From contig NZ_CP070619.1 in assembly GCF_017068395.1 (NCBI RefSeq), forward strand, positions 2,604,001 through 2,668,000: a stretch of 64,000 nt of DNA, read 5' to 3'. Shown one piece after another: positions 26,160-51,598 of the stretch. This DNA is from Rhodococcus pseudokoreensis (GTDB lineage Bacteria; Actinomycetota; Actinomycetes; Mycobacteriales; Mycobacteriaceae). A program made the translations under genes and the position numbers. Under the pieces are notes generated by a model that ran no database searches, was not told the origin of the DNA, and worked only from the letters and a program-made list of their open reading frames with translations. How positions within the stretch are numbered: the first letter of the stretch is position 1; each line of letters opens with the position of its first letter.

Positions 26160-26366
26160 CGCGGGTACCGGAGTCCCGACGAAGCATTCCAGGGACGAGG
26201 ACGGGGGACCCAAAGTCCTCCAGGGAACGCAAGTTTCCAGACGGACACCGGTCCGAATGTGCCTCGCACAGTCGGATCTTGGGGTGAAGCCAGACCCTCT
26301 CCAGCCAGGAGAGGCGAGGCCGGGCGACCTCTCAGCCCGAACCCGACAGCTGACCTCGCAGGCGCG
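26160..26366 (+). ncRNA. ydaO/yuaA-type (c-di-AMP) riboswitch in rpf leader
   Basis: The long leader carries the conserved ydaO blocks in order: ACGGGGGACCCAAAG near 26201-26215, GGGGTGAAGCC at 26281-26291, a stem CCTCTCC/GGAGAGG right after it, then GCCCGAACCCGACAGCTGAC and CCTCGCAGGCG ending about 26363. The riboswitch class binds cyclic di-AMP and is commonly found before rpf and cell-wall hydrolase genes in actinobacteria, where it usually lowers expression when c-di-AMP is high. The boundaries are approximate; the rpf start is about 23 nt downstream. Confidence 0.85.
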
Positions 26367-26388
26367 TGTGGAGAGGATCTCTACCATC

Positions 26389-33700: not shown

Positions 33701-34528
33701 CAGCGTGCCGTGCAGCGCCAGCCACCCGCCGAGGGCGAGCACCAGGGCCTGTCCGAGCATCGGGACCGCCTGCAGCGCAGGGTTGTACCGACTGGTGAGC
33801 CGCGCGACGCGCAGCCGGGACCGGAACAGCTCACCCGCCCGCTTCTCGAGGTCTTCGAGTTCGCGGCCCTCCTGGCCGAATCCCTTGACGACGCGCACCC
33901 CGGTGACGGCGGCTTCCACACCACCTGCCACGACGGCCGCCTGTTCCTGCGCATGCCAGTTGGCGGGGAACAGGTCGACGCGGCTGCGCAGGGAGATGAA
34001 CCACAGCGCGGGCAGCACGGCGAGGGCGACGAGGGTGAGGATCGGCGACAGCACGGCCATCACGCCCAGCGAGATCGCGAACATCAGCAGGTTCCCCGCC
34101 ATGTGCGGCAGCAACTGCAGGAGCATCTGGATCAGCGTGATGTCCGAAATCGACCGGCTCACCACCTGCCCCGTCTGCAGCCCGTCCTGTTTGACGCCGT
34201 CCAGGCGCAGCAGTGATCGGAAGGCGTCGCCGCGCAGATCGTACTGCACGCCGAGGGACAGCTGCCCGGACCGGTACCGCCGCGTGTAGGCGGCGGCGAA
34301 GCGGATCGCCGCGAGGGCGACGAGCACCGCGATCCACGGTGCCAGTGCATGATTCGTGTCGATGGCGGCGTTGTCGATCACGTGCCGGACGGCCAGCGGG
34401 ATGGTGGCGGTGGCCGCGGCCGCGACCGCCGCCGCCCCGTACGCGAGAACCAGATTGCGGCGCTGGCGCAGACAGTAACCGAACAGGTACCGCAGCCAGC
34501 CGGTGTTCTCCGGAGCTCCCGTCGTCAC
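30773..34528 (-). CDS. Fused ABC exporter, two TMD-NBD halves
   Basis: A 1251-residue protein with two complete exporter halves in one chain. NBD1 has Walker A GAAGSGKST (374-382), signature LSGGQ (478-482) and Walker B ILVLDD, with Asp503 where the catalytic Glu is expected. NBD2 has GQTGAGKST, a variant signature LSAGQ, and canonical ILLLDEATASLD. One degenerate and one intact ATP site is usual for asymmetric exporters. GTG 34528 overlaps the LLM gene stop (GTGA), so it belongs to the organosulfur operon. Linker segment near the middle is Ala/Gly rich. The exported substrate is unknown; the C-terminus ends within a palindromic repeat. Confidence 0.9.
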   Translation of the reverse strand: MTTGAPENTGWLRYLFGYCLRQRRNLVLAYGAAAVAAAATATIPLAVRHVIDNAAIDTNHALAPWIAVLVALAAIRFAAAYTRRYRSGQLSLGVQYDLRGDAFRSLLRLDGVKQDGLQTGQVVSRSISDITLIQMLLQLLPHMAGNLLMFAISLGVMAVLSPILTLVALAVLPALWFISLRSRVDLFPANWHAQEQAAVVAGGVEAAVTGVRVVKGFGQEGRELEDLEKRAGELFRSRLRVARLTSRYNPALQAVPMLGQALVLALGGWLALHGTLSLGTFVAFTTYLAAFASPVRQLATLLTVSQQGRASVERVREVIDNAPAVTTAPGAVDLPDGPLAVEFDDVAFGYGPSNRLLDGLSLRIAPGETVAVVGAAGSGKSTLAMLVPRLYDVDAGAVTVGGIDTRRLSLESLRSALGVVFEDSYLMSETIRANVSYGRPDVDEATVREALRVAQAEEFVDALPDGLETVVGEQGVTLSGGQRQRIALARALVTDPRILVLDDATSAVDARVEAAVHHELRVATRERTTLIIAHRRSTLALADRIAVLADGRIVDVGTSAELDERCPLFRALLSSADDVAAPDTSPPQPVVDGVTAELWRREDGDEASGVFDARAAAAFATAAAGASGPSRGGAAGGILSSAPPGPDVMARLDDLPPLTGDPDIAADEARAADPAFGLGSLLRPLLLPLVAGLVLVGLDAVAQIAVPVLVRTGVDRGVLQGARDLLLLAAAATVVVVLLDWAVNVAQTRVTGRTGERLLYTLRVKTFAQLQRLGLQYYERELAGRIMTRMTTDVDSLSNFLQTGLATAVVSGLTISGVLVALLVIDAELALVLVLVVPVLVAATVVFRRKSVPAYAEARDRVGIVNAYLQENVTNIRVTQAFRREDYNAAQFARRAWDFRESRLRAQRYMALYFPFVEFLSVVATGLVLAAGTARIHAGTLTVGTLIAFVLYVELFFAPVQQLSQVFDGYQQAVIGLGRLRGLMRTPTTTPQAGDPIVLDRISGGIVFDDVHFAYESGKGEALRGVELHIEPGETVALVGQTGAGKSTVLKLLARFYDPTEGTVRVDGIDTRALDLASFRQRLGVVPQEPHLFGATVRDAVAYGRPDATDAEVEAASRAVGAHDMVSGLTLGYLQPIGEHGRNLSAGQRQLLALARAELVDPDILLLDEATASLDLATEDRVRRATENLSRRRTTVVVAHRLSTAARADRVVVLDGGRVAEIGTHDELLDRGGVYRELWDAYAASPPVSTY

Positions 34529-35886
34529 TGTGCAGACACCAGCGTGGAATCCTTCTCGACCGCAAACTGATTCGCGGGCCGCGGCAGGCCGTAGTGCCCA
34601 CGCAGCGTGGTCTCGGTGTAGTCGGTGCGGAACAGTCCGCGTTCCTGCAGGATCGGGACCACCGAGTCGACGAACTTCTCCAGCCCGGACGGCAGGACGG
34701 CGGGCATGATGTTGAACCCGTCGGCGGCGCCGTTGCGGAACCAGTGCTCGATCGTGTCGGCCACCTGGACCGGGGTGCCCGCGAACGTGCGGTGCCCACG
34801 ACCGCCACCGAGTCGCCCGATCAGCTGCCTGACGGTGAGCTTCTCCCGGCGGGCGAGGTCCACGATCAGCGTGTACCGGCTCTTCGCGCCCTCGATCTCG
34901 TCCTCGGACGGCAGGTCGTCGGGCAGTTCCTCGTCGAGCGGGAGCTGCTCGGGTTCGAGATTGAACCGCGCCGCCAGCTGCTTGCGGGCGTACTCCGGCG
35001 AGATCAGCCGCTCCAGTTCGGCTTCGAGTTCGAGGGCCTCCTCCTCGGTGTCCGCGATGACCGGCACGATGCCGGGCAGGATCAGCACCTGCTCCGGGTC
35101 CCGTCCCACTGCGGCGACGCGGTCCTTGACGTCGGCGTAGAACGCCTTCCCCTCGTCCAGGGTGGGCTGGGCGGTGAAGATCGCCTCCGAGTAGCGGGCG
35201 GCGAAATCCTTTCCGTCCTCCGACGATCCCGCCTGCACGAGCAGCGGGTATCCCTGCGGCGACCGCGGCACGTTGAGCGGTCCCCGCACCTTGAAGAACC
35301 GGCCCTCGTGTTCGATGACGTGCACCTTGGCGGAGTCGGCGTGGATCGCGACGTCCTTGTCCGCGACGATGGCGTCGTCCTCCCAGCTGTCCCACAACTT
35401 GGTGGAGACGTCCACGAACTCCGCGGCCCGCTCGTACCGGCTGCGGTGGGCGGGCGTGTCGTCGAGGCCGAAGTTCTGCGCCGCGTCGGCGCCTGCCGTG
35501 GTGACGATGTTCCAGCCGGCGCGGCCGCCGCTGACGAAGTCGAGGGACGCGAACCGCCGCGCCAGGTTGTACGGCTCGTTGTAACTGGTCGACGCGGTCG
35601 CGATCAGGCCGATCTTCTCGGTGGCCGCGGAGACCGCGGTGAGGATGATGGTCGGCTCCAGCTTGCCGCTCGGCCTGCGTTCCGGGTTGCTGAACAGCAC
35701 CGGGCTGTCGGCGAGGAACACCGAGTCGAACTTTCCGCGTTCGGCGGTCTGCGCCAGCGAGATGTAGTGCTTGATGTCGAGGTTGGCGTTCGGGTCGCTC
35801 TCGGGCAGGCGCCAGGCCGCCTCGTGGTGTCCGATCGCCATCAGGAATGCGTTGAGATGCAGCCGGCGCTGGGGTGACGAACTCAT
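34525..35886 (-). CDS. LLM flavin monooxygenase, NtaA/SnaA/DszA family
   Basis: A 453-residue FMNH2-dependent monooxygenase of the group that includes nitrilotriacetate, dibenzothiophene sulfone and other C-S or C-N cleaving enzymes. Typical blocks are LNAFLMAIGHHEAAWR at the start, FDSVFLADS, SAATEKIGLIATASTSYNEPYN, SGGRAGWNIVTT, PLLVQAGSSEDGKDFAARY and GFNIMPAVLP. ATG 35886 has GAGGAG about 7 nt upstream. It lies in an operon with sulfonate-type uptake genes, so an organosulfur substrate is likely. A flavin reductase is needed but none is in the window. Its closest relative in the window is the gene at 46332-47675. Confidence 0.9.
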   Translation of the reverse strand: MSSSPQRRLHLNAFLMAIGHHEAAWRLPESDPNANLDIKHYISLAQTAERGKFDSVFLADSPVLFSNPERRPSGKLEPTIILTAVSAATEKIGLIATASTSYNEPYNLARRFASLDFVSGGRAGWNIVTTAGADAAQNFGLDDTPAHRSRYERAAEFVDVSTKLWDSWEDDAIVADKDVAIHADSAKVHVIEHEGRFFKVRGPLNVPRSPQGYPLLVQAGSSEDGKDFAARYSEAIFTAQPTLDEGKAFYADVKDRVAAVGRDPEQVLILPGIVPVIADTEEEALELEAELERLISPEYARKQLAARFNLEPEQLPLDEELPDDLPSEDEIEGAKSRYTLIVDLARREKLTVRQLIGRLGGGRGHRTFAGTPVQVADTIEHWFRNGAADGFNIMPAVLPSGLEKFVDSVVPILQERGLFRTDYTETTLRGHYGLPRPANQFAVEKDSTLVSAQ

Positions 35887-35897
35887 GGTGTAACTCC

Positions 35898-36632
35898 TCA
35901 CTGTGCCGCTACCTCGACGCCGAGGGCGCCGAGCAGCGTATTGCGAAACTCGTGGAACTTGCTGTCGCCGAGCGCTCTCGGCCTCGGAATGTCGACGATC
36001 TCGTCGACGACGATCTGCCCGCGGTCGAGAACGAGCACCCGGTCGGCGAGCGCGATCGCCTCGTCGACGTCGTGGGTGACGAGCAGGACGGTGGGGCGGT
36101 GCCGGCGGATCAACTCCTGCAGCAGCGCGTGCATCTTGATCCGGGTCAGCGCGTCGAGGGCGCCGAACGGCTCGTCGGCGAGGAACAGCTGGGGCTCGCG
36201 GACCAGCGCCCGCGCCAGCGCCACCCGCTGTTGTTCGCCGCCGGACAATTCACTGGGCCAGGCCTTCTCGCGGCCGGCGAGCCCCACCTCCGCGAGTGCG
36301 GAGGCGCCCCGGCTCGTGCCGGTGCGGCCCAGCCCGAGCGTCACGTTGTCCAGCACCCGCAGCCACGGCAGCAGCCGTGAGTCCTGGAACGCCACCGACA
36401 CTTCCGCGGGCACGGTGAGCGTTCCGCCGCGGCCCTCGACGTTGTAGTCGAGGCCTGCGAGCGCGCGCAGCAGTGTGCTCTTGCCGGACCCGCTCTTGCC
36501 GAGCAGGGCCACGAACTGGCCTTCGGGAATGTCGAGGTCCAGGTGGTCGAGGACGGTCTTGTCGCCGAATCCGCGGACGAGGGACCGCACCTGCACGGCG
36601 GCGGGTTCTAACCGGCGAGCGTCTTGCGCCAT
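35898..36632 (-). CDS. ssuB: Sulfonate-type ABC transporter ATPase (SsuB-like)
   Basis: A 244-residue ATPase with Walker A GKSGSGKS (45-52), signature LSGGEQQRVALARAL and Walker B LFLADEPFGALD. The sequence VAFQDSRLLPWLRVLDNV is typical of the nitrate/sulfonate/taurine subfamily. It starts 25 nt inside the end of the permease gene. It powers the uptake system formed with the next two genes upstream. Confidence 0.92.
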   Translation of the reverse strand: MAQDARRLEPAAVQVRSLVRGFGDKTVLDHLDLDIPEGQFVALLGKSGSGKSTLLRALAGLDYNVEGRGGTLTVPAEVSVAFQDSRLLPWLRVLDNVTLGLGRTGTSRGASALAEVGLAGREKAWPSELSGGEQQRVALARALVREPQLFLADEPFGALDALTRIKMHALLQELIRRHRPTVLLVTHDVDEAIALADRVLVLDRGQIVVDEIVDIPRPRALGDSKFHEFRNTLLGALGVEVAAQ

Positions 36633-37477
36633 GACAGCGACCGCCTTTCGATGTAGCGGAGGACGGCGTCGGACAGCAGACCGAAGATGCCGTAGACGGC
36701 GAGCCCCACGAGAATCACGTCGGACTGTCCGTAGTTCTGGGCGTTGTACATCATCTTCCCCAGACCGGTCACCGCGTTGATGCCCTCGACGACGATGAGA
36801 GTGAGCCAGGCACCGGTCACCGAGAGGCGCAGTCCGAGAAAGAATCCCGGCATCGCACCCGGCAGCACCACTTTGCGGATGAACGTGGCCCGGGACAGCC
36901 CGAGGACCTCGGCGAGTTCGACGTACCGGTTGTCGATCGACGTCAGCGAGTTGTGGGTCTGGATGTACATGTGGACGACGACGCCGAGCGCGATGATCAC
37001 GATCTTGAACGTCTCGCCGATGCCGAGCCAGAGGATCAGCAGCGGGATCAGGCCGAGCGTCGGGATGGCCCGTTTGAGCTGGATCGGCCCGTCGATCAGG
37101 GCGTCACCGGAACGTGTCAGTCCGGCGACGACGGCGAGGGCCGTCCCGATCACCACACCGAACGCGAACCCGACGGCGGCGCGGCTCAACGACGCGGCGA
37201 TGTGCTCCTGCAGGATGCCGGTGGAGATCAGGTCGACGGCCGTGGTGACCACCGTCCACGGCGCGGACAGCTTTCGCGGGTCGATGAGGCCCGCCAGGCT
37301 GCCCACCGCCCACACCGCGAGGAGGAGCAGCACCCCGGCCAGCCGGGAGAACGGGAAACCCTTGCGCAGGCCGAGTCGCCGGATCGGCCGCTCGGCGGCA
37401 CCGGACCCGGACCGGTCGACACCGGCGGCGGTCGTGCGCGCCGGCACGGCTGCGGGCGCGGAGAGAATACTGGTCAT
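36608..37477 (-). CDS. ssuC: Sulfonate-type ABC permease (SsuC-like)
   Basis: A 289-residue inner-membrane permease with about six helices and the EAA-type loop ELAEVLGLSRATFIRKVVLPGAMPGFFLGLRLSVTGAW of the SsuC/TauC family. The Pro/Arg-rich N-terminus (about 40 residues) is cytoplasmic. It overlaps the binding-protein gene by 4 nt and the ATPase gene by 25 nt. Confidence 0.92.
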   Translation of the reverse strand: MTSILSAPAAVPARTTAAGVDRSGSGAAERPIRRLGLRKGFPFSRLAGVLLLLAVWAVGSLAGLIDPRKLSAPWTVVTTAVDLISTGILQEHIAASLSRAAVGFAFGVVIGTALAVVAGLTRSGDALIDGPIQLKRAIPTLGLIPLLILWLGIGETFKIVIIALGVVVHMYIQTHNSLTSIDNRYVELAEVLGLSRATFIRKVVLPGAMPGFFLGLRLSVTGAWLTLIVVEGINAVTGLGKMMYNAQNYGQSDVILVGLAVYGIFGLLSDAVLRYIERRSLSWRKTLAG

Positions 37478-38541
37478 CGCTGCACACCGCCTCGGTACTC
37501 GGCCGGCACGGCGTCGGCGGCGACGGTTTCGAATCGGCGGTCGAACAGCTCGTTGGCGTCGAACTCACTGAAGTAGCCGGCGTCGGAAAGCAATTGGACG
37601 GTGTCCTGCGTCCACTCGACGGCCGCGTCCCAGTTGGCCGGGTACGACGGTCGCTGCCCGACGGAGGCGACGATGCGCTTGCCGTCCTCGGCCGACACCT
37701 GTTCGCTCTCCACGTAGTACTTCTGGATCCACGCGTCCTGGTTCTCCCACGCCCAGATCTCCCCGCGCGCCCAGAACGGAATGAACGCCTTGATCGCCGC
37801 CGCCTTGGCCGGATCCTGCAGGACCTCCACCGGCGCCCAGAGCACGGTGAGCGCGTCCACGGCGTCGGTCTGCAACGCCTTCGCTCCGTCCGGTCCGTAC
37901 TGGTTCAGGTACTTCGTCACCGTCGGCTCCGACAGCGGCGCGACGTCCACCTGCTTCGACTGCAACGCGGTGAGGAACTGCGGGCTGGGCAGCTCGACGA
38001 GTTGGACGTCTTTCGTGGTCAGGCCCTGCGCCTTCAGCGTTCGCAGGATCACCACGCCCTGTGCCTGCCCGGGCGAGAACGCGATCTTCTTGCCCCGCAG
38101 GTCCGGCAGTGCCGCGATGTCCGAGCCGGGGGCGGTGGCCAGCACGTACTGCGGCTGTTCCTTCTCCCGGACCGCGACGATCTTCGCGTCGAGCCCCGTG
38201 GCGTGCGCCTGGATCGGCGGGATCGCGGCGTTGGTGGCCAGATCGACCGCGTTGCCGCGGAAGGCCTGGATCACGTCGGGACCGGCGCTGACGTCCGGCC
38301 AGTCCGACACGGTGAACGGGAGATCGGCGATCTTGTCGGTCGCCTCGAGCTGCAGCCGGGTGGTCTTGATCGACACGCTGAGCGAGGTTCCTTCCGGAAC
38401 CTGATCGGGCACAGCATCATCGAGCGCGAGCCCGCCGGAGGAACCGGAGGAGCAGGACGCGAGCCCGAGCGCCACGACGCCGGCGAAGGCAGCGCGCGTG
38501 AGGCGCCGGTACCCGGCGGAAGACACGAGTGAACTGGACAT
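37474..38541 (-). CDS. ssuA: Sulfonate-type substrate-binding lipoprotein (SsuA-like)
   Basis: A 355-residue lipoprotein with a lipobox VALGLASC (Cys30). The body is of the NMT1/SsuA type, with the conserved DLRGKKIAFSPGQAQGVVILRTLKAQG and a later LFDRRFETVAADAVP. It is the first structural gene of operon 1. The start is preceded by a 14-bp palindrome that contains the ribosome binding site, and further up by a cysteine-containing leader ORF. Confidence 0.9.
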   Translation of the reverse strand: MSSSLVSSAGYRRLTRAAFAGVVALGLASCSSGSSGGLALDDAVPDQVPEGTSLSVSIKTTRLQLEATDKIADLPFTVSDWPDVSAGPDVIQAFRGNAVDLATNAAIPPIQAHATGLDAKIVAVREKEQPQYVLATAPGSDIAALPDLRGKKIAFSPGQAQGVVILRTLKAQGLTTKDVQLVELPSPQFLTALQSKQVDVAPLSEPTVTKYLNQYGPDGAKALQTDAVDALTVLWAPVEVLQDPAKAAAIKAFIPFWARGEIWAWENQDAWIQKYYVESEQVSAEDGKRIVASVGQRPSYPANWDAAVEWTQDTVQLLSDAGYFSEFDANELFDRRFETVAADAVPAEYRGGVQR

Positions 38542-38546
38542 GAGTG

Positions 38547-38560
38547 ATCCTTCGAAGGAT
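38547..38560 (-). promoter_or_regulatory. Palindrome overlapping ssuA ribosome binding site
   Basis: ATCCTTCGAAGGAT is a perfect 14-bp palindrome that ends 6 nt before the ssuA ATG and contains its purine-rich GAAGGA. It could hide the site in a hairpin or be a protein operator. Confidence 0.65.
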
Positions 38561-38563
38561 GTG

Positions 38564-38661
38564 GTCTCCGGTCGGGCACCCCGGACGCAGAAGGTCGGGT
38601 GCCACGCAGGAGCGAGAAAGGAAGAACGGAACGATGTTTCGGCAGACGTCAGGCCGGAGAC
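38564..38661 (-). promoter_or_regulatory. Possible attenuator structure between leader ORF and ssuA
   Basis: Right after the leader stop, the message has GTCTCCGG (38661-38654), perfectly complementary to CCGGAGAC (38571-38564), which is just ahead of the ssuA palindrome. Inside are two competing hairpins: GACGTC/GACGTC next to the leader stop, and GGCACCC/GGGTGCC. These allow alternative folds that could respond to ribosome position. Confidence 0.55.
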
Positions 38662-38662
38662 G

Positions 38663-38749
38663 TCAGATGCGACCCGGTCGCGTGCGGCGACAACAGGACC
38701 CGGAGCGACACGAGGTGGTACGCACGCTGTCCGCCGTGGTGATGTTCAC
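38663..38749 (-). CDS. Cysteine-rich leader peptide of organosulfur operon 1
   Basis: A 28-codon ORF beginning GTG (VNITTADSVRTT) and carrying SCRSGSCCRRTRPGRI, that is three cysteines including two in a row, before its stop. AAGGA lies 7 nt before the GTG. It ends 121 nt before ssuA. Short polycysteine ORFs that attenuate sulfur-assimilation operons are known in mycobacteria: low charged tRNA-Cys stalls the ribosome and opens the downstream genes. The codon content, site and pairing segments fit that model. Confidence 0.68.
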   Translation of the reverse strand: MNITTADSVRTTSCRSGSCCRRTRPGRI

Positions 38750-38815
38750 ACCAATATCCTTGCGATCCAGCGCAATCCCCGTCAACATTGCTTCCCACCG
38801 AATTAACTCCGGCCC

Positions 38816-38831
38816 TGTGATACACGTCACG
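38816..38831. promoter_or_regulatory. Near-consensus CRP/GlxR-type site upstream of operon 1
   Basis: TGTGATACACGTCACG fits TGTGA-N6-TCACA with one mismatch. It is 67 nt upstream of the cysteine leader ORF on the minus strand and overlaps the stop of the ROK gene. Confidence 0.5.
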
Positions 38832-40038
38832 AGATTCCGGCCAACGGCCGCACGAAGCTGGTGAGCGGCGCCCGGTAGAGCTCCGCGAGGATCACGGAAC
38901 CGGCGGACACCGGCAGTGCCCGTCCCGGAAAGCTGGTGGACAGCACGGACCACGACGGATCGTCGCACGTCGCCGACGACTCCGCGACCGCCCGCCTGAC
39001 CGTGTCGAGACAGCCGGGAATCCCGCTCACGCTCTGGTCGCAGACGATGAGGACCTCCGGATTGAACAGATCGAGCAGTCGCGCCGCCACCACCCCGACG
39101 CCGTGCGCCCGTTCCGTGAACAGGGCCAGCGCCTCCGGGTGCCTGCGACGGCCCGCGTCGAGAAGGTCGCGGAAGATCGGCCGCTCGATGATGCCCAGTT
39201 CCATCGCCCTGCGTACCAGCACCCGATCCGACAGGGTGGCCTGCACACATCCGGTGCGTCCGCAGGTGCACTCCTCGACACTGTTCTCGACGGGCACGTG
39301 CGCCACCGCGCCCGCCGCCGCGCGAGGACCGTGGTGGACCACGCCGCCGGTCGCGAACGCGGCGTCCACCACGTTCCCGACGAAGAGTTGCACCACGCTC
39401 TCGCGCGCCCTCGGTTCCCCGAACAGCACCTCCGCGTCGATGAGAGCACGCGCGTGCGAATCCATCCGGACGTCCAGGCCCGTGCGCTGCTCGAGATCCG
39501 CGCGGACCGGGTACCCGTTCCAGCCCGGGATCGGATGCTCGCGCACCACACCCGATTCGGAGTCGATCCAGCCGCCCGCCGCGAAGCCGACGCCGATCGG
39601 AACCGACGGCTCACCATGCTGGACGGCCAGCGCCTCCAGGGTCGTCACGGCGTTCCGGAGGATCTCGGCCGGTCCCAGCCCGTAGTGCGGATCCCGGGAC
39701 CGCGCCAGCACCCGCCCGCGCAGGTCGAGCAACGCGGTGGTCACGTGCGTGATCGCCAGATGGATGCCGTAGACGACGTACCGGCTGTCGTCGACGTCCA
39801 CCGGCACGTGGGGCCGTCCCAGCCCGGTGGGACCCGCGATCTCCGGCAGTTCCCGCAGCAGGCCGTGGTCGACGAGCTGCGCGCTGGCCGTGGTCACCGT
39901 CGCGGGCGAGAGCCCGGTGACGCGGGCGATGGTGCTGCGCGCGATCGGCCCGCTGTCGAGGACCGTACGCAGCACCGTGCCCGCGCTGGCGCCGGAACGT
40001 CCGGCGCCGCGCCGGGTGACGGGCTGGGTTCGCGCCAT
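38827..40038 (-). CDS. ROK-family transcriptional regulator, SsuR-like
   Basis: A 403-residue protein with an N-terminal winged helix (SGPIARSTIARVTGLSPATVTTASAQLVDHGLL) followed by a ROK domain with the zinc motif CTCGRTGC. In Corynebacterium glutamicum the ROK protein SsuR activates sulfonate-use genes, and this gene sits directly upstream of an ssu-type operon in the same orientation, so a similar role is likely. ATG 40038 is preceded by AAGGGGGGAACG; the frame extends to 40110 without a second site. A perfect palindrome lies upstream at 40137-40184. Confidence 0.85.
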   Translation of the reverse strand: MARTQPVTRRGAGRSGASAGTVLRTVLDSGPIARSTIARVTGLSPATVTTASAQLVDHGLLRELPEIAGPTGLGRPHVPVDVDDSRYVVYGIHLAITHVTTALLDLRGRVLARSRDPHYGLGPAEILRNAVTTLEALAVQHGEPSVPIGVGFAAGGWIDSESGVVREHPIPGWNGYPVRADLEQRTGLDVRMDSHARALIDAEVLFGEPRARESVVQLFVGNVVDAAFATGGVVHHGPRAAAGAVAHVPVENSVEECTCGRTGCVQATLSDRVLVRRAMELGIIERPIFRDLLDAGRRRHPEALALFTERAHGVGVVAARLLDLFNPEVLIVCDQSVSGIPGCLDTVRRAVAESSATCDDPSWSVLSTSFPGRALPVSAGSVILAELYRAPLTSFVRPLAGIS

Positions 40039-40136
40039 CGTTCCCCCCTTCGCCGCGCGCAGTGATGTGGCCTGACCTCGAACGCTAACGAAGGGGAACG
40101 TGCAGTTCAACGGACTCGATTCCCGTGAATTTAACT

Positions 40137-49404: not shown

Positions 49405-50489
49405 TTCTGTCCTTCCAGTACTTCTCCGTCGGGCCCGCTCTCGGCGGGGAACGTGCCGTTGGCGTACGGGTTGAATTCGTTGGTGTAGAGGTCGGTCGCG
49501 GTCAGCTTGCCCTCGTCGAGCTCACCGTTCCGGACGAGCCAGTCGATCCAGGTCTGCAGCTCCTTCTCCTGGATCACGGCCCCGGCGATGGGAATTCCGG
49601 AGCTGCGCCAATAGTCGATGGCCTCGTCGCTCTCGTTGCGGCCACGCTTTTCGATGATGCTCTTCAGCCGTGCGACCACCTCTTCGCGCGGGGTCACCTG
49701 GGTCCAGCGGATGGCCCGGGCCGTGCCCTGCACGAAGTCCGCGACAGCGTCCTCGTTCTTCGCCAGGAAGTCGTCCCGCACCACGTACGTGCCGTAGCTG
49801 AACGCGCCGAACAGATCCCGGTCCGTGAACAGCGGCCGGATTCCCCCGCGCTCCTGGGCTGTTTCGCGGTAGATCCCGTTGATGGCGGCCACGTCGATCT
49901 GGCCTTCGCGCAGCGCCTGTTCGTTGTTCACCGGCGGCACGACGATCAGCTCCACCTGCTTGATCTCGTCCGGGGTCAGGCCCTGCTGGGCCAGCCACTC
50001 CCGGACGAGGAACTCGTGGTGCGCGCCGAGCGTGTTCATCCCGACCTTCTTGCCGATCAGGTCACGCGCCGAGCGAATGGGGCTGCCGTCCAGCACGAAG
50101 TAGCCCGTGAACTCGCCGGCATCCGCGCCGTAGGAACTCAGCACCGACGTGATCGGCGCCCCCGCGGCGTTGAGTTTGACGACGGCTCCGTTGAAGGCCG
50201 AACCGAATTCGACGTCACCGGTGGCCGCCGACTGGATGTCCTGCGGGCCGCTGGTGGTGTCGCCGACCCATTCGAGCTTGACCTTGTCGTAATACCCCAG
50301 GTCCTCGGCGAGTTCGTGGAATCCCACGTCGCCGGCCCACCCCTGGTACCGCAGGACCGTCTTCCCGTCCTCGGTGGTGGCGGTGTCCGACGAGCCGGCA
50401 CACCCCGCCACTCCCGAGGCCAGCGTGAACAGTGCTGCGGTCGCCGCGAGTGCGCGCACGGCGCCGCGCCGGAACCGGGAGTGGGACAT
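49401..50489 (-). CDS. Substrate-binding lipoprotein B, operon 2
   Basis: A 362-residue lipoprotein with lipobox LASGVAGC (Cys30). It is a close tandem paralogue of the next gene upstream: both contain the RYxGxxGxVxFxELAxDLGYY start, the block RDLIGKKVGMNTLGAHHEF, VREWLA, and the end block NPYANGT followed by SGPDG. It belongs to the NMT1/SsuA-like family. It shares the ABC ATPase and permease downstream. Confidence 0.9.
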   Translation of the reverse strand: MSHSRFRRGAVRALAATAALFTLASGVAGCAGSSDTATTEDGKTVLRYQGWAGDVGFHELAEDLGYYDKVKLEWVGDTTSGPQDIQSAATGDVEFGSAFNGAVVKLNAAGAPITSVLSSYGADAGEFTGYFVLDGSPIRSARDLIGKKVGMNTLGAHHEFLVREWLAQQGLTPDEIKQVELIVVPPVNNEQALREGQIDVAAINGIYRETAQERGGIRPLFTDRDLFGAFSYGTYVVRDDFLAKNEDAVADFVQGTARAIRWTQVTPREEVVARLKSIIEKRGRNESDEAIDYWRSSGIPIAGAVIQEKELQTWIDWLVRNGELDEGKLTATDLYTNEFNPYANGTFPAESGPDGEVLEGQK

Positions 50490-50527: not shown

Positions 50528-51598
50528 TCACTTGGCGGCCAGCGCTTGTCCGTCGGGACCGCTGTCGGCGGGGTACGTGCCGTTGGCGTACGGGTTGTAC
50601 TCGTTGGTGTAGACGTCGGCAGGCGTGAGCTTGCCGTCCTCGAGTTCCCCGTTGCGGACGAGCCAGTCGATCCAGGTCTGAATTTCCTTGTCGGTGATCA
50701 CGCCACCGGGGCCTGCGACACCGGGCGACTTCCAATAGTCGACGAGGTCGGTGGTCTCGTTGCGGCCGCGCCCCGTGATGATCTCCTTGTACTTCGCGAT
50801 CACGTCGGCGCGGGGCGTGGTCTGCGTCCAGCGGATGGCGCGGGCCGTGCCCTGCACGAAGTCGGCGACGGCGTCCTTGTTCTTCGAGATGAAGTCGTTG
50901 CGGAACAGCAGCGAACCGTACGTGAAGGAACCGAAGATGGACTCGTCGGTGAACAGCGGGCGGATGCCGCCGCGTTCGACGGCCTTGTCGCGGAACACGC
51001 TTCCGAGCGTGCCGACGTCGATCTGTCCCTGGCGCAGCGCCTGCTCGGTATTCACCGGCGGCACGACGGTCAGCTCGACCTGCTTGATCTCGTCGGGGCT
51101 CAGCCCCTCCCGGGCCAGCCACTCACGCACGAGGAATTCGTGGTGCGCGCCGAGCGTGTTCATGCCGACCTTCTTGCCGATCAGGTCGCGTGCCGACGTG
51201 ATCGGGCTTCCGTCGAGCACGTAGTACCCGTTGAACGTCTCCTTGTCGGAGCCGTAGTAGCCGATGACGGACGTGATCGGGGAATCGGCCGCGGCGAGCT
51301 TCAGCACCGCCCCGTTGAACGCCCCACCGAAGTCGGTCTGACCCGTGGCGGCGTTCTGAATGCTCTGCGGCCCACTGGTGGTGTCGCCGATCCAGTTCAG
51401 TTCGACCTTCTGGTAGTAGCCGAGGTCGGCCGCGAGTTCCGGGAACGAGACCTGGCCCGTGGTGCCCTCGTACCGCAGCACGGTCTTGCCGTCGGCGGTC
51501 GTGGTGGTTTCGGATTTGGAGCAGGCAACGGCGAGACTGGTGAGGGAGAGGAGGGCGGCCGCGGCCGCCAGAGTCCGCGCGAAACGGGGACGAGTCAT
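50528..51598 (-). CDS. Substrate-binding lipoprotein A, operon 2
   Basis: A 356-residue lipoprotein with lipobox SLAVAC (Cys26). It is the first structural gene of operon 2 and a tandem paralogue of the gene at 49401-50489, with long identical stretches such as RDLIGKKVGMNTLGAHHEF and ADFVQGTARAIRWTQ. Two binding proteins probably widen the substrate range of one transporter. It is preceded by a nine-codon leader ORF with two cysteines. Confidence 0.9.
   Translation of the reverse strand: MTRPRFARTLAAAAALLSLTSLAVACSKSETTTTADGKTVLRYEGTTGQVSFPELAADLGYYQKVELNWIGDTTSGPQSIQNAATGQTDFGGAFNGAVLKLAAADSPITSVIGYYGSDKETFNGYYVLDGSPITSARDLIGKKVGMNTLGAHHEFLVREWLAREGLSPDEIKQVELTVVPPVNTEQALRQGQIDVGTLGSVFRDKAVERGGIRPLFTDESIFGSFTYGSLLFRNDFISKNKDAVADFVQGTARAIRWTQTTPRADVIAKYKEIITGRGRNETTDLVDYWKSPGVAGPGGVITDKEIQTWIDWLVRNGELEDGKLTPADVYTNEYNPYANGTYPADSGPDGQALAAK

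Follow-up and report, generated by a model that had tools for sequence, protein, structure and literature searches.

The ssuACB-monooxygenase operon of Rhodococcus pseudokoreensis is preceded by a 28-codon open reading frame (ORF) with three cysteine codons. Comparison of genomes showed that this leader ORF, its Cys codons, and the distance between its start and the promoter are widely conserved among actinomycetes. Based on this pattern, we consider it likely that the leader makes ssu expression respond to cysteine. Cysteine sensing at this site had been proposed earlier by a reader given the letters of the DNA and its ORFs (referred to below as the sequence-only reading). Of that proposal, the Cys leader of the ssu operon was borne out by conservation and by motif-based tests, but its Shine-Dalgarno sequence, its switch between complementary arms, and its unmasking of the ssuA ribosome binding site (RBS) were not. 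We infer a leaderless start, translation of the leader, and ribosome stalling within it, and the sign of the response is taken from the mycobacterial cases by analogy. The kind of leader is known from mycobacteria; the operon context is new. All positions refer to the window, the whole 64,000-nt stretch of DNA that was analyzed, unless a locus is named.

The leader ORF and its conservation in close relatives

The 28-codon ORF described by the sequence-only reading is present on the minus strand, within the 286-nt gap that separates the end of a ROK-family regulator ORF (38827) from the ATG of an ssuA-like gene (38541). The features of this region and of the operon are collected in Table 1. By its position the ROK regulator looks SsuR-like. 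Two more SsuA-like binding proteins are encoded nearby, at 49512-50291 and 50783-51382 (-).

Table 1. Features of the ssu operon and its upstream region, in window coordinates.
Feature	Position	Strand	Remarks
NtaA/DmoA-type FMN monooxygenase	34525..35901	-	TIGR03860, E 1.7e-169, over cut-off
ssuB-like ATPase	35898..36632	-	NF008420, E 8.6e-77, below cut-off
ssuC-like permease	36608..37477	-	NF008470, E 3.8e-54, below cut-off
ssuA-like sulfonate-binding lipoprotein	37474..38541	-	355 aa; SsuA_fam TIGR01728, E 6.6e-28, below its cut-off
Palindrome ATCCTTCGAAGGAT	38547..38560	-	small hairpin holding the ssuA Shine-Dalgarno sequence; invariant in 8/8 genomes, absent in G002
Partner arm CCGGAGAC	38564..38571	-	near the ssuA RBS
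Pyrimidine-rich spacer, TTCCGTTCTTCCTTTCTCGCTCCT and around	38590..38640	-	candidate Rho-loading or anti-Shine-Dalgarno tract; borders approximate
First arm GTCTCCGG	38654..38661	-	one base after the leader stop
Cys leader ORF	38663..38749	-	GTG start at 38749, TGA stop ending at 38663; reads VNITTADSVRTTSCRSGSCCRRTRPGRI; Cys codons 14, 19, and 20, all TGT; intact in 8/8 genomes
Probable -10 hexamer AAGGAT	38756..38761	-	ends 6 nt before the GTG; nAnnnT geometry
Probable -35 hexamer TTGACG	38780..38785	-	inside GCAATGTTGAC; 18 nt from the -10
Imperfect palindrome CCGGAGTTAATTCGG, candidate ROK operator	38798..38812	-	TTAATTC at 38806-38800, 57 nt from the leader start
CRP-like site GTGACGTGTATCACA	38816..38830	-	overlaps the ROK stop codon
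ROK-family regulator	38827..40110	-	likely start 40038; Mlc/NagC models, E 3e-34 and 1e-27, below cut-off

Seven ORFs of 10-45 codons with at least three Cys per eight residues were counted on the two strands of the window, which corresponds to about 0.016 expected in a single-strand gap of 286 nt. Because Cys-rich short ORFs are not rare genome-wide, the sequence alone is weak evidence, and one such ORF can suggest a leader but does not prove it. Of the 143 Cys codons counted in 39 window ORFs, 22 are TGT. None of the NCBIfam leader-peptide families matched the 28-residue peptide at E values up to 1, although queries this short are hard for such models, and Rfam gave no match over the region at the gathering score. 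The sole Rfam match in the window lies elsewhere: a c-di-AMP riboswitch (ydaO/yuaA leader) at 26167-26380 (+) that exceeds the gathering score with 52.6 bits.

When the DNA of the gap was searched against 61 genomes, ten gave a match. Eight of these (own genome included) matched over the full length with 84-100% identity, and G002 matched at bases 1-118 only; a 32-base match in G014 was set aside as chance. Loss of the Cys codons in related genomes had been named in the sequence-only reading as grounds for giving up its proposal. What was found is that all eight genomes keep the ORF, its length, its stop codon, and the three TGT codons, with indels in the spacer beyond the stop, and it is this conservation that puts the leader beyond chance. 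One of the eight, G005, has a fourth Cys codon (TGC). The ssuA match in this genome (L025, G005:C15:73791-74024) covers residues 1-78 only, with the leader intact, which may reflect a broken gene or an assembly error. For the whole leader, a codon test yielded pS 0.155 and pN 0.117. For codons 2-11, pS (0.307) exceeded pN (0.117), while for codons 12-28, the half with the Cys codons, pS (0.077) was below pN (0.117). Conservation of the Cys half is thus one of nucleotides, and the codon test shows no amino-acid constraint on it.

Promoter motif, candidate operator, and start spacing across actinomycetes

The word AAGGA at 38761-38757, 7 nt before the GTG, had been read as the Shine-Dalgarno (SD) sequence of the leader. 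Comparison with distant loci spoke against this assignment. An nAnnnT hexamer lies 6-7 nt before the leader start in G002, G077, and Frankia, in all 43 named loci that carry the promoter motif, and in all 30 places found by motif alone (both sets are described below), but an SD-like word (AAGGA, AGGAG, or GGAGG) occurs in only three of the 30. Since AAGGA is part of the nAnnnT hexamer and is not kept elsewhere as a purine SD, a leaderless start is more likely, with AAGGA belonging to the putative -10 hexamer of a leaderless promoter. A consensus sigma-70 scan listed no promoter at the region. The hexamer AAGGAT departs strongly from TATAAT, and an activator would likely be needed. The candidate operator CCGGAGTTAATTCGG resembles the CysR/SsuR box of Corynebacterium glutamicum, given as TGAAtnnAAt in the accessible part of PMC2580772. 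The near-CRP site noted upstream was also confirmed and is kept in the eight close genomes and in G002; it did not extend to the Frankia locus (L045), where it is absent.

Two more distant genomes keep the order ROK gene-leader-ssuA: G002, with an ssuA 69% identical, and G077, from another genus, with an ssuA 55% identical. Their leader peptides, VNTSRMHAARRSCRRPGRCRLTGVPRCRR and VIDIEAESVRGVLQRNVFAFRCCCR respectively, each have three Cys residues, all encoded by TGT. A ROK-similar gene precedes the leader in these two genomes and in Frankia. To describe the promoter more generally, the motif TTAATTC-N8-GNANTGTTGAC was sought in 80 ssuA relatives from named genomes. The exact Rhodococcus form GCAATGTTGAC finds four of these loci and the looser pattern 43, made up of three Rhodococcus, one Candidatus Frankia californiensis, and 39 Streptomycetaceae. 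In all 43, a short ORF with at least two Cys codons (at least three in 36) begins with an ATG or GTG at +56/57, and the nAnnnT hexamer ends 6 nt ahead of that codon. In 36 of the loci a loose ROK pattern lies just upstream. The Frankia leader ends in CSPRNRACCPCCCC. The distance from the motif to the ssuA match is about 270 nt in Rhodococcus, 358 nt in Frankia, and 0.86-1.23 kb in Streptomycetaceae, where another gene must therefore intervene. The motif is absent in 37 of the 80 loci, including all 20 from Nocardia. Short ORFs with at least three Cys codons were seen within 600 nt before ssuA in eight of the 80 loci; those of Nocardia L048, L050, and L053 and of L110 were not counted in the motif class. 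The upstream regions of 21 weaker ssuA relatives were also read. Besides those of G002 (L018) and G077 (L019), the ORFs of L027 (G036, MIFGSVDTLARRHALPACCVCAPCPRSC) and L028 (ending RRRHVDLCRTAGASCRPGTA) resemble Cys leaders, and other Cys-containing short ORFs in these regions were discarded as probable out-of-frame readings of coding DNA.

The same motif was then used for searches blind to both ssuA and Cys codons. At the level of the order it was found in three of 397 genomes (own, G016, and G077), and at the level of the phylum in four of 396 (own, G620, G546, and G512). The G512 match was taken as chance, as was that at L175, which lies in an AT-rich stretch. A search of the G620 family with the exact pattern gave 62 places in 60 of 394 genomes, and a reversed-pattern control gave none. 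This family is Streptomycetaceae, as at least six of the leaders recur unchanged at named Streptomyces, Actinacidiphila, and Peterkaempfera loci. Thirty of the 62 places were read (L173, L174, and L176-L203). In every one, an ATG or GTG stands 56-58 nt after the first base of TTAATTC and opens an ORF of 12-74 codons with at least two Cys codons, and in 27 the ORF has at least three. Over all 30 leaders, 76 Cys codons are TGT and 28 are TGC. When random anchors were used in the same loci, such an ORF with at least three Cys was found in 109 of 21,886 trials (0.5%). The counts from the named and the blind-found loci are not independent: the loci are related, and at least six of the 30 leaders are shared with the named set. 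Peptides differ widely among the places (for example MSPLTSCRTLCC, MSSARVQVPLTKCRVVDLMRVARTRCC, and MNGQQRNPERAQSPTLSCCRHSAAGACCPRRSRQGARRAA) with the Cys codons and the offset kept. An offset of 56-58 nt thus holds for G077, for the 43 named loci, and for the 30 blind-found places, and the leader of the window starts at +57. The leaders of L192-L203 have only twelve codons (MSPLTSCRTLCC is one of them), and the nucleotides near their Cys codons are almost invariant. In the R. pseudokoreensis genome the full motif was found once and therefore does not act there as a signal common to the sulfur regulon.

Proposed relay of a cysteine signal and competing accounts

The arrangement suggests the following model. 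The Cys leader would form the 5' end of the ssuACB-monooxygenase mRNA. An SsuR-like ROK regulator bound to CCGGAGTTAATTCGG probably drives the promoter TTGACG-N18-AAGGAT, and the transcript would start at or very near the leader GTG, leaving the leader with no 5' UTR ahead of it. Under a shortage of Cys-tRNA, ribosomes would slow at the three rare TGT codons and the genes for sulfonate uptake and desulfonation would go up. When cysteine is plentiful, the leader would be translated quickly and the operon would stay low. Stalling would be relayed most likely via translation of ssuA, the SD of which lies in a small hairpin, and less likely via Rho acting at the pyrimidine-rich spacer.

The 14-bp palindrome that had been pointed out over the ssuA RBS is indeed there and never varies in the eight close genomes. 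In folding predictions the ssuA SD is mostly paired in all eight, with an unpaired probability of 0.13-0.39 in the free RNA. The effect of a ribosome was modeled with masks over Cys 14, over Cys 19/20, over the stop, or over the whole leader. These shifted the cost of opening the RBS by at most 0.5 kcal/mol in 30 of 32 cases, and the remaining two (G019 at the stop and G020 with the leader covered) raised it. Unmasking of the RBS by a stalled ribosome, as proposed in the sequence-only reading, was therefore not reproduced by folding in either of two designs, and no consistent effect was seen. Two pairings picked out by eye, CTCCGG in the leader competing for CCGGAG and leader GGUCCU with the SD, were dropped because they are not kept in all eight genomes. 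In ten Streptomycetaceae loci with twelve-codon leaders, the spacer contains a near-invariant CCCGGAATTC. Consensus folding of these ten leaders suggests that CCCGGAATTC pairs with the RBS region; it shows little covariation, and no link between leader and RBS. Occlusion of the RBS is plausible in both the close genomes and the Streptomycetaceae on the basis of these predictions.

No terminator-like site was found at 38400-38900, unlike in a classical terminator attenuator of the trp, ilvB, or cysS type. The lack of an intrinsic terminator would fit an alternative output for the same Cys leader, namely Rho-dependent termination, in which a fast ribosome leaves the leader and Rho loads on the C-over-G spacer to halt RNA polymerase ahead of ssuA, while a slow ribosome prevents this. 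The spacer is in fact pyrimidine-rich. Its maximum pyrimidine fraction over 50 nt is reached by 0.3-0.5% of random window stretches in seven of the eight close genomes and in G002 (8.7% in G020), and the median for the 30 Streptomycetaceae places is 4% of background. Rho has also been proposed for cys leaders of Mycobacterium in the part of PMC1262725 available. On the other hand, C exceeds G to a moderate degree (background fraction 0.02-0.33 for the close set, with a median of 0.14 over the 30 Streptomycetaceae places), pyrimidine tracts are equally able to pair with a Shine-Dalgarno sequence, and a ribosome stalled at codon 20 would sit upstream of the tract and leave it uncovered. We regard a Rho-dependent output as rather unlikely.

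The ORF could also be translated without sensing anything, as a by-product of a leaderless promoter controlled by the ROK regulator and CRP alone. The promoter motif is no less conserved than the leader, and the C. glutamicum ssu genes are controlled by SsuR according to the accessible text of PMC2580772. A mere by-product is nevertheless improbable given what the lineages have in common: their peptides differ except for Cys, of which every leader has at least two, both in the 43 named loci and in the 30 blind-found places. More doubtful still is the switch of the sequence-only reading, in which GTCTCCGG pairs with CCGGAGAC and a stalled ribosome changes the pairing. Both segments exist, and 89.1% of helix cells pair over the eight sequences. 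However, the predicted pairing probability is only 0.00-0.15 in all genomes and ribosome states, there are no double-sided changes, the pairing is not above that of shuffles, and a ribosome stalled at the Cys codons would, by position, leave both arms free. A chance ORF with no role can practically be dismissed: the window does have one Cys-rich short ORF per roughly 18 kb of strand, and at least three Cys are present in 17% of 1481 short ORFs at other positions of the Streptomycetaceae loci, but conservation across genera and the motif-based tests argue strongly against it.

Returning to a leader that senses cysteine, we tentatively propose, as an idea that could about as easily fail as hold, that it is part of an old actinomycete two-input module in which a ROK operator and the start codon of a leaderless Cys leader are held 56-58 nt apart and the output is independent of leader-RBS pairing. 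If so, a protein would sense the sulfur source and the ribosome would sense cysteine in a single promoter-leader unit. The peptide would be free to change, from 28 codons in Rhodococcus to 12 in Streptomycetaceae, with the Cys codons and the offset held. The fixed offset and the twelve-codon leaders would make this a compact system in which to study how a stalled ribosome acts on a gene more than 100 nt away with no evident leader-RBS pairing. The leader unit recurs in Rhodococcus, Frankia, and Streptomycetaceae, and would extend cysteine-sensing leaders from the sulfate and cysteine genes of mycobacteria to organosulfur scavenging. In desulfurization, for which rhodococci are employed, repression by sulfate and cysteine sets a practical limit.

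Known systems and further cysteine leaders

The closest precedent is provided by the polycysteine leaderless short ORFs of mycobacteria (Canestrari et al. 2020, Mol Microbiol 114:93; cited in the accessible parts of PMC9031893 and PMC13236596), and further precedents for Cys leaders are found in the portions of PMC1262725 and PMC4633059 at hand. Like the mycobacterial ORFs, the leader of the window has clustered Cys codons, is the first ORF of a sulfur operon, directly upstream of its genes, and is probably leaderless, and its Cys codons are conserved while the remaining peptide varies. It differs in serving a sulfonate operon behind a ROK regulator and in having its Cys codons split (SCRSGSCC) rather than in a single run. 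The candidate Cys leader peptides that Seliverstov et al. (2005; PMC1262725, in the part available) describe for Mycobacterium, P. acnes, and B. longum share with that of the window Cys codons near the stop, the lack of a terminator hairpin, and pyrimidine motifs in the spacer, but precede cys or cbs operons. The word 'Rhodococcus' is absent from the main text of that paper. In C. glutamicum, the accessible account of SsuR/CysR (PMC2580772) likewise describes a ROK regulator with sulfonate genes, but its passages on SsuR mention no Cys leader. Another Cys-codon upstream ORF with tandem Cys before a cysteine-related gene is uORFC-8-2, located before cysS in Rhodobacterales. As described in the available text of PMC8632094, it ends in an intrinsic terminator, unlike the leader of the window. 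A literature search that covered few subscription papers turned up no listed paper naming a Cys leader before ssu in Rhodococcus, Frankia, or Streptomyces.

Three further Cys leaders were detected among 49 loci around sulfur-gene families of the R. pseudokoreensis genome, at L128 (~2619-2721, -), L151 (322-409, +), and L155 (2963-3053, -). One, with the core RRHVDLKRVCSCCCLPCLAQ, stands before a gene of the sulfite/nitrite-reductase family, and the other two, MQSSHELMLTRRRTVDLCRLGACCCTCC and MQTCRELLLTRRRTVDLCRVGGSCCLWRR, stand before rhodanese operons, which recalls the mycobacterial cysA2 case in the part of PMC4633059 consulted. All three have nAnnnT hexamers 7 nt from the start, the second ATG being taken as the start in the sulfite/nitrite-reductase case, and they have in common an RR-VDL-R core that the window leader lacks. 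Several other Cys-rich short ORFs in the 49 loci look like background. The genome therefore seems to hold at least four cysteine leaders. This number is in line with the situation in mycobacteria, where the Cys leaders have reportedly been termed a 'ribulon'.

A second type of Cys leader, MQRSAHLTTRGHVDLKRVCSA (form MQRSAHLTTRGHVDLKRVCSAACHRA), was encountered in 39 of the 80 named loci, not the same 39 as the Streptomycetaceae loci with the motif. It lies 2.3-2.8 kb before ssuA and hence, by position, apparently before the ROK gene and upstream of the leader that follows the motif. TTGACC is followed by a TACSTT-like hexamer 7 nt before the ATG, and the ORF has two Cys codons (three in L066). 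This Streptomyces-type leader and that of the window both look leaderless and both contain Cys codons, but their peptides and promoters differ. If the two-input module is real, Streptomyces, and perhaps Frankia, would sense cysteine twice per pathway, the second time with a leader before the regulator gene. In Frankia, a second-type Cys leader, RRHVDLRRQAAALC, is found at L045 (~1220-1306, +), by position before the ROK regulator gene.
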